A stretch of DNA of 59,612 nt from NCBI RefSeq assembly GCF_000313915.1, contig NZ_AMYT01000002.1, positions 1-59,612 on the forward strand, written 5' to 3'. Shown in pieces: positions 45,967 to 49,350 of the stretch. The stretch comes from Catellicoccus marimammalium M35/04/3 (GTDB lineage Bacteria > Bacillota > Bacilli > Lactobacillales > Catellicoccaceae). The notes below the pieces were generated by a model, which was given only the letters and a program-made list of their open reading frames with translations, did not search any database and had not been told where the DNA came from. The first letter of the stretch is position 1. Each line of letters opens with the position of its first letter. The position numbers were made by a program, and so were the translations under genes.

Positions 45967-46353
45967 ATGGCAAAAAAAGTGAATCGTAAACGTCGTGTGA
46001 AAAAAAATATTGAATCTGGCGTAGCTCATATTCATTCTACATTTAACAATACTATTGTTATGATCACAGATGTACACGGAAATGCAGTGGCTTGGTCATC
46101 AGCAGGTGCTCTAGGCTTTAAAGGAAGTAAAAAATCAACTCCATTTGCTGCGCAAATGGCTGCAGAAGCAGCAACTAAAGCTGCAATGGAACATGGTATG
46201 AAATCTGTTGAAGTAACAGTGAAAGGTCCTGGTTCAGGTCGTGAAGCTGCAATTCGTTCATTACAAGCAACAGGTTTAGATGTTACATCAATTCGTGACG
46301 TAACTCCAGTTCCTCACAATGGATGCCGTCCTCCAAAACGTCGTCGTGTTTAA
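45967..46353 (+). CDS. rpsK: 30S ribosomal protein S11
   Basis: S11 (128 residues) on the 30S platform. It begins [18 protein letters not shown] and ends with [23 protein letters not shown] 45967 is chosen because AAGGAGG is 9-10 nt upstream; a TTG three codons earlier overlaps that site. Confidence 0.97.
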
Positions 46354-46392
46354 TATTGAACAAGGAACGTTTTGAAAGGGGTATCGATAAGA

Positions 46393-47331
46393 ATGATTGA
46401 ATTTGAAAAACCAAGAATCACAAAAATTGATGAAGATAGAGATTATGGCAAGTTTGTTATCGAACCTTTAGAAAGAGGTTATGGTACTACTTTAGGTAAT
46501 TCTTTACGTCGTATTTTATTATCTTCTTTACCAGGGGCTGCAATTAATAGTTTAAAAATTGATGGCGTATTACATGAATTTTCAACAATTCCAGGAGTAC
46601 GTGAAGATGTAACTCAAATCATCTTAAACATCAAAGGGTTAGCTGTTAAATTGTTTGCTAAAGAAGAAAAAACCCTTGAGATTGATATTACTGGTCCAGC
46701 CATCGTAACTGCTGGGGATATTATTGCTGATAGCGATGTAGAAGTCTTAAATAAAGACATGTACATCTGTGAAGTTGCAGAAGGTGGTAACTTCCACGCT
46801 ACATTAACAGTAAAACCAGGTCGCGGTTATGTACAAGCGGATGAAAATAAAACAGAAGATATGCCAATTGGGGTCTTACCAGTAGATTCTATTTTTACAC
46901 CAATTAAACATGTTAACTACCAAGTAGAAAATACTCGTGTAGGTCATCGTAATGATTACGATAAATTAACAATGGAAATTTGGACAGATGGATCTATTAT
47001 GCCACAAGAAGCATTGAGTTTAGCTGCCAAAATTATGACTGAACATCTTTCTATCTTCGTAAATCTAACAGATGAAGCACAAAACGCTGAAATCATGGTA
47101 GAAAAAGAAGAAACTAAGATTGAAAAAGTATTAGAAATGGCAATTGAAGAATTAGAACTATCTGTTCGTTCTTACAACTGCTTAAAACGTGCAGGAATCA
47201 ATACAGTTCAAGAATTAACAGATAAATCTGAACCAGAAATGATTAAAGTACGTAACTTAGGTCGTAAATCATTGGAAGAAGTAAAACAAAAATTAGCAGA
47301 TCTTGATTTACATTTACGTCAAGATAGTTAA
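46393..47331 (+). CDS. rpoA: RNA polymerase alpha subunit
   Basis: Alpha (312 residues) forms the dimer that nucleates RNA polymerase. The N-terminal domain (about 1-230) has [23 protein letters not shown]; a linker leads to the C-terminal domain (about 245-312) with [19 protein letters not shown] and [15 protein letters not shown] that binds UP elements. The start [15 protein letters not shown] follows AAAGGGG at a rather long distance. Confidence 0.97.
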
Positions 47332-47356
47332 GTAACATAATAAGGAGGGAATTATA

Positions 47357-47737
47357 GTGAGTTATCGTAAATTAGGTCGTACAAGCGCTCAACGTAAAGC
47401 GTTATTACGTGATTTAACAACAGCAGTGATCATGAACGGTCGTATCGAAACAACAGAAGCTCGCGCGAAAGAAGTTCGTCGTACTGTAGAAAAAATGATT
47501 ACTTTAGGTAAACGTGGAGACTTACACGCACGTCGTCAAGCAGCTGCTTTCTTACGTTGCGGTGTAGTAGAAACAAAACTTGATGGAGAAAAAGTTGTTG
47601 AAACAACATCTCTACAAAAATTATTTAACGAAGTAGCTCCTAAATATGAAGGTCGTAACGGTGGATACACTCGTATCATCAAAACAGAACCTCGTCGTGG
47701 AGACGCTTCACAAATGGTTATTTTAGAACTTGTTTAA
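47357..47737 (+). CDS. rplQ: 50S ribosomal protein L17
   Basis: L17 (126 residues), near the exit tunnel, last gene of the block. It begins [20 protein letters not shown] and ends [12 protein letters not shown]. The start is GTG after AAGGAGGGA. An unusually elaborate terminator-like structure follows. Confidence 0.97.
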
Positions 47738-47754
47738 TTTCTATAGAAAAGCAT

Positions 47755-47877
47755 CACTTTATTGATGATTCGATGAGTGTTATGATGATGGAGAAATCCA
47801 AGTCTAGCTCTTGCCTTTCCACCTAGAACAATCTAGGTGGAAGTGGCTTTCATCGTATCTATAAAGTGTTTTTTTTT
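47755..47877 (+). terminator. large structured terminator or 3-prime RNA after rplQ
   Basis: A closing helix CACTTTAT (47755-47762) with ATAAAGTG (47861-47868) continues through GAT/ATC and CGATG (47771-47775) with CATCG (47851-47855). Inside lie a small hairpin TGGA-GAAA-TCCA (47789-47800) and a 14-bp hairpin, GCC-TTCCACCTAGA with TCTAGGTGGAA-GGC, loop ACAA (47813-47847). Nine T follow immediately. It ends the S10-spc-alpha transcript but is far more complex than a plain terminator. Confidence 0.7.
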
Positions 47878-47883
47878 GCCCAA

Positions 47884-47914
47884 AAAAGCTTAGTCTGTAC
47901 AGACTAAGCTTTTT
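47884..47914. terminator. bidirectional palindromic terminator
   Basis: A perfect 24-nt palindrome (47887-47910; half-site AGCTTAGTCTGT) is flanked by A on the left and T on the right. It can stop the minus-strand phosphatase transcript and any read-through from rplQ. Confidence 0.88.
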
Positions 47915-48524
47915 ATTCGTTATAGGCTAATAATGTGCAACGTTCATGGACTGGATCCCATTCTAAAACGGAAATACTGGCATTTCCTAATAATCCTTCC
48001 TTACGAATTTCTGGCATTGGGCAATGCATTAAACGCTTTAATAAGGTAGTTAAAAAGACGGCATGAGAAACGATGAGAATGTTTGCGTCTTCCGGCTCTT
48101 TTTTTGTAATTTCGTAAATGAAATCTTTGCCTCGATTTTCTAAGTCATAATAATCTTCTCCACCCGTCAAAGTTTTGTCAAAGTGGTCTGGATAATTACG
48201 GTATAGAGATAAAATTTCATCGTCTTGTAGACGTTGGATCGGTTGACCATCATATTTTCCAAAGTGAATTTCTCTTAAACGATCATCAGGAATAATCTGA
48301 GAAATTCCCGCTTGGTTTTCCTTTTCAATCCATTTTAATGTTTCTTTTGCTCTTCCTAGTGGGCTGACATAAGCAGTATGAAATTGGATATCTTTTAATT
48401 TTTCTCCCGCATTTTTCGCTTGTTGAATTCCAGTTTGTGTCAATGGCGAATCACAAGTTGCTCCCTGGACGATATTTTTTAAATTATATTCCGTTTGCCC
48501 GTGACGCACAAAAAATAAATGCAT
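47913..48524 (-). CDS. histidine phosphatase family protein (phosphoglycerate mutase-like)
   Basis: A 203-residue enzyme of the histidine phosphatase superfamily. The phospho-acceptor motif is FVRHGQTEYN (His8), with Arg7, Glu in REIHFGKYDG and a late His in IVSHAV. Members include phosphoglycerate mutase-like and broad-specificity phosphatases; the substrate here cannot be told. AAGGAGAG lies 8 nt before the ATG on the minus strand. Its promoter overlaps that of the divergent response regulator. Confidence 0.88.
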   Translation of the reverse strand: MHLFFVRHGQTEYNLKNIVQGATCDSPLTQTGIQQAKNAGEKLKDIQFHTAYVSPLGRAKETLKWIEKENQAGISQIIPDDRLREIHFGKYDGQPIQRLQDDEILSLYRNYPDHFDKTLTGGEDYYDLENRGKDFIYEITKKEPEDANILIVSHAVFLTTLLKRLMHCPMPEIRKEGLLGNASISVLEWDPVHERCTLLAYNE

Positions 48525-48560
48525 TTTTCTCTCCTTATATGTTAAAATTCCTTATAATTC

Positions 48561-48588
48561 ATTATACAGAGGTTGAAAATAGTGTAAA
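48561..48588 (-). promoter_or_regulatory. promoter of the histidine phosphatase gene
   Basis: On the minus strand: -35 TTTACA, 16-nt spacer, -10 TATAAT. It overlaps the divergent promoter at 48573-48601. Confidence 0.6.
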
Positions 48589-48601
48589 CTAAAAATACAA
48601 T
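48573..48601 (+). promoter_or_regulatory. promoter of the two-component/carboxypeptidase operon
   Basis: -35 TTGAAA, 17-nt spacer, -10 TACAAT, 48 nt before the response regulator ATG. Confidence 0.65.
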
Positions 48602-48648
48602 CTTTTAGTGATATTTAGGAATTTCAGTAAAGAAAAGAGGGAATAGTC

Positions 48649-49350
48649 ATGAAAGTACTCGTAGTAGATGATGATAAAGAAATCGTAGAATTATTAACCA
48701 TTTATTTGAAAAATGAAGGTTATGAAGTGGCACAAGCCTATAATGGAAAAGAAGCATTATTGACATTACAAAATGACAAAGATATTGCTTTAATGATTTT
48801 AGATGTGATGATGCCAAAAGTAGATGGCATGGAAGTTGTGACTACTTTACGTAAACAAAAATCAACCTTACCGATTATTATGTTGACAGCGAAAACAACG
48901 GATATGAATAAGATTCAAGGATTAATTGCTGGGGCAGATGACTATGTCACAAAACCATTTAATCCTTTAGAAGTCATGGCTCGAGTAAAATCTCTACTTC
49001 GTCGTTCTAACATGCCTACTGGACCAGAAAAAGAAGTATCTGAGGATGCTTTGATTGAAACTGGCGCTTTAACGATTAATCGTGGGTCACATGAAGTGAT
49101 TACAAAATCTGGGGAAAAAGTACAATTAACCGCACTTGAATTTGGTATTTTATATTTATTAGCCAGTCATCCAAACCAAGTATTTAGTGCAGAAGAAATT
49201 TTTGAAAAAGTTTGGCAACAAGAAAATGTTGTTTCTGCGAAGACGGTGATGGTTCACGTGAGCCATTTACGTGATAAATTAGAAAAAGCCACTCATGGAG
49301 AAAAAGTAATTAAGACCGTTTGGGGAGTGGGATATAAGATTGAAGCTTAA
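48649..49350 (+). CDS. OmpR-family response regulator (VanR-like)
   Basis: A 233-residue regulator. Receiver domain (1-118) with VVDDD (Asp7-9), phospho-acceptor Asp52 in LMILDVMMPKVDG, Thr in LTAKT and Lys in TKPF; winged-helix output domain (about 140-233) ending TVWGVGYKI. The kinase gene overlaps its end by 11 nt, and a D-Ala-D-Ala carboxypeptidase gene follows, so it probably regulates cell-wall genes. AAGAGGG precedes the ATG. Confidence 0.92.
   Translation: MKVLVVDDDKEIVELLTIYLKNEGYEVAQAYNGKEALLTLQNDKDIALMILDVMMPKVDGMEVVTTLRKQKSTLPIIMLTAKTTDMNKIQGLIAGADDYVTKPFNPLEVMARVKSLLRRSNMPTGPEKEVSEDALIETGALTINRGSHEVITKSGEKVQLTALEFGILYLLASHPNQVFSAEEIFEKVWQQENVVSAKTVMVHVSHLRDKLEKATHGEKVIKTVWGVGYKIEA

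Follow-up and report, generated by a model that had tools for sequence, protein, structure and literature searches.

A structured RNA at the end of the S10-spc-alpha cluster

We analysed a window of 59,612 nucleotides from Catellicoccus marimammalium M35/04/3 (RefSeq assembly GCF_000313915.1, contig NZ_AMYT01000002.1, positions 1 to 59,612), in which rplQ closes the S10-spc-alpha cluster and is followed by a structured RNA and a convergent gene:

47357..47737, + strand: rplQ, encoding ribosomal protein L17 and closing the S10-spc-alpha cluster (Pfam PF01196, 129.6 bits)
about 47755..47775, + strand: 5' arm of the closing helix, P1 (pair probabilities 0.78–1.0; P1 beats shuffles in 56/70 non-streptococcal Lactobacillales representatives)
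47774..47841, + strand: match to Rfam RF01708, L17DE (57.5 bits, gathering cut-off 37)
47775..47810, + strand: conserved L17DE core, in which two short helices flank a conserved internal loop and a variable hairpin forms the cap (core model R1, 50.4 bits)
47789..47800, + strand: GAAA-tetraloop hairpin capping the core, variable in sequence among relatives (fold and alignment)
47813..47847, + strand: P3, the second hairpin, 15 pairs with one bulge (ensemble fold)
about 47851..47868, + strand: 3' arm of P1, running into the T tract (ensemble fold)
47869..47877, + strand: nine T, the U tract of a putative terminator (sequence)
47883..47914, no strand assigned: a further inverted repeat of plain form, which probably serves the convergent gene as well as any read-through (terminator-like hit scan)
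47913..48524, − strand: convergent gene, His_Phos_1 (histidine phosphatase)

The initial annotation had read the segment after rplQ as a three-way-junction RNA, and both fold energy and pair probabilities bear this out at the position claimed: the RNA at 47738–47885 folds at −50.1 kcal/mol, a value as low being reached in none of 200 dinucleotide shuffles (z −5.87). The closing helix, proposed to join 47755–47775 with 47851–47868, was recovered as three segments—47755–47762/47861–47868, 47764–47767/47856–47859, and 47771–47775/47851–47855—and runs into the T tract, whose nine T were likewise found. It is A/U-rich, with G-C pairs at two of eight positions in its outer part. The ensemble fold also contains the GAAA-tetraloop hairpin and the second hairpin, the latter with 15 pairs and one bulged base instead of the 14 bp first assigned to it. 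Downstream, the next + strand gene starts at 48649, at the annotated distance of about 770 nt beyond the T tract, and two further features, absent from that annotation, lie in between: the convergent gene and the inverted repeat at 47883–47914, which is the only terminator-like hit in 46300–48700. Elsewhere in the window, a tRNA cluster (11–1475) contains several tRNAs that recur with identical scores about 524–689 nt apart, suggesting a duplicated block.

Assignment of the RNA to the L17DE family

The element had been thought possibly undescribed, which it is not: positions 47774–47841 match the full model (1–78) of L17DE, a family published in 2010 from Lactobacillales and Listeria, where it follows L17 genes in what may be their 3' UTRs (Weinberg et al. 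2010, PMC2864571). The core begins at 47775, shortly after the rplQ stop, and its sequence and two short helices are present, the pairs being available in the window and conserved in the family. Judged from its sequence, the window RNA belongs to this known family, with the closing helix and T tract lying outside the Rfam match, which stops at 47841. Matches to RsaD, mir-2187, and SNORA79 in the window fell below cut-off and were taken as chance.

Feedback on L17 was suggested when the family was described (PMC2864571), and a 2020 paper on r-leaders notes that L17DE might be a binding site for L17 or for some other product of the operon upstream of it (PMC7247131). In E. faecalis and E. faecium, L17DE was predicted in an expressed rplQ 3' UTR of ~180 nt with a predicted terminator (PMC7724050); passages in two other papers merely list the family (PMC7160235, PMC6064168). 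The papers on L17DE found here report no functional test.

The initial annotation had further held a small RNA to be more likely than a riboswitch. Its doubt about a riboswitch for a next gene stands, because the gene directly downstream is convergent instead of lying on the same strand, as a riboswitch or attenuator would call for. Its preference for an sRNA, by contrast, found no support. A stable small RNA that is released from the 3' end of the mRNA by cleavage and acts in trans would suit the strong fold, and a tiling array of group A Streptococcus placed a small RNA, SR79100, next to the L17 gene (PMC2765633); the published entry, however, gives SR79100 as 400 nt in orientation '<', whereas fasX is '>', so that it may lie on the other strand. 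Moreover, a simple consensus scan of the + strand at 47342–48126 returned no promoter-like site ahead of the element, and the publications found here treat L17DE as a 3' UTR element (PMC2864571, PMC7724050). We regard a trans-acting small RNA as very improbable.

The core is widespread after rplQ

Group names used below for loci without a taxonomic label (streptococci, Listeria-like, Bacillales, planococci) are our own reading, based in part on their similarity to named loci. Among genomes of the order Lactobacillales, a core pattern lies 16–98 nt after the rplQ stop in 60 of 60, the window genome included. The Rfam model finds matches in 56 of the 60, 49 of them above cut-off and one per genome; the four loci that it misses (L057–L060) are matched by our core model R1, in whose construction all four were used. 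R1 also matches 74 of 80 named rplQ loci, many of which went into building it, and has no match in the remaining six, from Fructobacillus, an unclassified Lactobacillaceae, three Bacillus, and one Anoxybacillus. Two loci that escaped the core pattern, and are thus absent from its counts, were both found by R1 (L128, L132). Within the order, L102 (Fructobacillus) and L103 carry a plain hairpin terminator after rplQ and no L17DE, an apparent loss.

Beyond the order, the reach of the core is greater than that of the Rfam model: in 398 Bacilli genomes R1 matches 88, with one match per genome and 49 of them outside the order, and Rfam 46. Of 30 loci fetched from those 49 matches, 29 have rplQ directly upstream, the exception being L197. 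A set of 249 genomes of the phylum gave five R1 matches, and the sole one outside the class (G560) is not adjacent to rplQ. Hits away from rplQ at L197 (E 5.5e-4) and L202 (E 7.5e-4) are probably chance. The gap-free, duplex-energy, register, and partner-swap tests described below skip L141–L170, loci that R1 had found for the most part in genomes sampled before or in near relatives of these.

Several Bacillales loci (L129, L173, L187, and others among L171–L200) carry a large homologous form of L17DE after rplQ, ~160–175 nt long, with a box GATTTATACGACA ahead of the core and, within P3, the conserved stretches TTGAGCA and GCGCATTTC. Eight Bacillales loci were scanned against Rfam, and in none did any family reach its cut-off.

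An invariant internal loop and two pairing registers

Conservation within the core was assessed on an alignment of 86 cores (A1), from which six of 92 representatives, with long cores, were left out. In the outer helix P2a (GAGY with GCUC) pairing stands at 99.1%, and three of its four pairs show both-side changes; the GAU/GUC helix hardly varies; and the whole structure is 92.4% paired versus 83.9% in shuffles. Four columns of the internal loop (5, 8, 47, and 48) never vary. With loop bases invariant or nearly so while the hairpins and outer helix drift, the core shows the pattern expected of a recognised site. Large extra hairpins are inserted in the capping hairpin in L063, L075, L105, and L046, indicating that this position tolerates insertions.

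Core strands can also pair in a second register, GUUA with UAGC, and it is conceivable that the RNA is a conditional terminator that slips between this register and GAGU/GCUC, the second pairing freeing bases that lengthen the closing helix. In the window ensemble the second register does prevail (0.93–0.98 per pair versus 0.002–0.004 for the first), and free-energy ensembles of 118 elements are divided, with 54 favouring the first register, 27 the second, and 37 neither—values to be read with caution, as energy models are unreliable for loops like those of the L17DE core. Both registers are largely pairable, the second at 97.0%, counted with the helix that it shares. Unlike the first, however, the second shows no both-side changes, and at three of its positions 6, 2, and 9 of the 85 sequences cannot pair. 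We consider such a slip highly improbable.

Ribosomal leaders may imitate the rRNA site of their protein, but such likeness is often absent (Weinberg et al., PMC2864571). R1 showed no likeness to the 23S rRNA locus of the window genome (best E 0.88), where a scan for the loop motif gave two hits on each strand, no more than in shuffles (mean 3.3); as no 16S gene was found in the assembly, these results cover 23S alone.

Coupling of the core to the putative terminator differs among lineages

Pairing between the region upstream of the core and the bases before the T tract was compared with shuffles by duplex energy. Over 70 non-streptococcal Lactobacillales representatives the sum was −1043.5 kcal/mol versus −567.3 kcal/mol in shuffles, with 0/200 as low and a z of −25.1, and 56 of the 70 reached p ≤ 0.05; the window alone was borderline, 9/200 shuffles being as good. 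When partners were swapped among sequences with differing 3' arms, 62 of the 70 paired better with their own arm than with foreign arms on average, which speaks for co-variation of the closing helix across lineages. The z-scores ignore kinship and so overstate independence, and two loci (L034, L091) entered both tests under a different T-run rule. The duplex-energy test gave no closing-helix signal in 7 Streptococcus, 5 Listeria-like, 4 Lactococcus/Floricoccus, and 33 Bacillales sequences (two more Streptococcus had no T run), and a gap-free helix score reached p ≤ 0.05 in 30/90 sequences from the order or named loci and in 1/29 from Bacillales.

Alignments of hand-picked subsets of 31, 21, and 24 sequences (A2–A4) were also made: RNAalifold did not predict the closing helix in three alignments, and in the MAFFT alignment A2 of 31 close relatives the helix is nearly invariant, both sides having changed in 1/11 pairs. 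Covariation of this helix, which the initial annotation had named as a test of its reading, is seen across Lactobacillales lineages; within the 31 relatives the helix is too constant to show it. Taken together, the duplex and swap comparisons argue that the closing helix is real in most non-streptococcal Lactobacillales.

The earlier claim that terminator formation requires folding of the entire domain fits the window and most Lactobacillales but not the streptococci, Bacillales, or Listeria-like genomes. Streptococci keep the core and have no closing helix beside the T tract, with a separate hairpin further on, while in Bacillales and Listeria-like genomes P3 itself adjoins the T tract; the Bacillales P3 has 11 pairs, several with both-side changes. 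An antiterminator in Bacillales, pairing the 5' strand of the core with the terminator arm, is visible by eye in some sequences and was rejected, being absent in L187, L196, L199, L192, and L139. A plain hairpin at this place, which the initial annotation had named as evidence against its reading, does occur in relatives, without the core (L102, L103, L124, L125, L130, L135).

These arrangements bear on a simpler reading, in which the RNA is no more than an ornate intrinsic terminator, or a stabiliser of the 3' end, for a very abundant mRNA, with a core that withstands 3'-to-5' nucleases and binds no ligand. A closing helix abutting the T tract, like the Bacillales P3 that abuts it too, is what one would expect of it, and a position at the end of the operon would account for the element staying with rplQ. 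Stability alone, however, needs no near-invariant unpaired bases across two orders; core and terminator are separate in streptococci; and in some relatives a plain hairpin suffices. On balance we find the ornate terminator rather unlikely.

The element stays with rplQ where ecfA has moved

Near the element in many genomes lies ecfA, which starts less than 600 nt from the rplQ stop in 36/60, 33/72, and 29/29 loci with the core. Most of the fetched Bacillales loci have a separate rplQ terminator, then the core, then another terminator just before ecfA, so that a role in read-through to ecfA is possible there. From both observations one might suppose a transcription-attenuation leader of the downstream ecfA1-ecfA2-ecfT operon, or the descendant of one. 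Yet in the window genome ecfA is on a different contig (C17) from the element, which lies beside rplQ on C2; ecfA is far away in two genomes (G003, G050) and a few kb off in three (G004, G045, G021), with the element still at rplQ in each. Its tie is thus to rplQ. Together with the convergent gene downstream in the window, the single match per genome, and the rplQ found upstream in nearly all fetched Bacillales hits, this makes an ecf leader improbable.

A proposed terminator-integrated element of the S10-spc-alpha mRNA

Our preferred reading starts from what we observed here, a core, its fixed position after rplQ, and a closing helix adjoining the T tract. We propose, with a probability of roughly 45%, that L17DE forms part of the 3' UTR of the S10-spc-alpha mRNA, is built into the terminator there, and has a core that a protein, possibly L17, reads. 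Its first step is the firmer: the closing helix and U tract probably act as an intrinsic terminator, in which case the 3' end of the operon would form with the whole three-way junction folded on it. More tentatively, the core GAGY-GUUAY-GAU / GUC-UA-GCUC could be recognised by a protein acting in trans, the likeliest candidates being ribosomal proteins encoded in the operon, L17 for instance; recognition would alter termination or mRNA stability according to ribosome supply. The idea of protein recognition and feedback was first raised by Weinberg et al. (PMC2864571).

Several observations count against this proposal. The closing helix is A/U-rich, weak for a terminator; it is near-constant in one alignment, and its duplex result is borderline for the window alone; in streptococci the core occurs with no closing helix next to a T tract; the position of the core beyond a separate rplQ terminator in most fetched Bacillales is hard to reconcile with a pure rplQ 3' UTR role; and there is no likeness to 23S rRNA, although its absence is called typical of ribosomal leaders (PMC2864571).

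A far bolder version, which we think quite improbable, would make L17DE a 3'-UTR sensor of ribosomal-protein supply in Lactobacillales and many Bacillales: a protein would read the core and a register slip would make or unmake the closing helix beside the U tract. In this way the element would define the 3' end of S10-spc-alpha from its downstream side and, in planococci, how far transcription reads on into the operon of the ecf transporter. To our knowledge, a structured 3' UTR controlling its upstream operon would be unusual in bacteria. Lineage-dependent coupling and the reach into Bacillales pose the question whether L17, or another protein of the operon, acts on the 3' end of the largest ribosomal operon.

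Comparison with known systems

With ribosomal-protein leaders, including the L17 r-leader of Actinobacteria and Proteobacteria (PMC7247131), the window element shares a structured, conserved RNA tied to a ribosomal-protein gene and a proposed feedback. A leader, however, sits in a 5' UTR, whereas the window element lies 3' of rplQ and the gene beyond it is convergent; the L17 r-leader was compared by its description only. Like an intrinsic (Rho-independent) terminator, the element has a helix with nine T directly after it (closing helix to 47868, T at 47869–47877), but here the A/U-rich outer helix encloses ~98 nt with the conserved core and a second hairpin. Closest is L17DE (RF01708) itself, in score over the gathering cut-off, position 3' of an L17 gene, core helices, loop sequence, and bacterial order. 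The Rfam match differs in omitting the closing helix and T tract of the window, and the Rfam model passes its cut-off in two of the Bacilli genomes outside the order, whereas the core-only R1 reaches 49. What our sequence comparisons add to the family is a coupling of core and terminator that appears to depend on lineage, and a spread of the core well into Bacillales.
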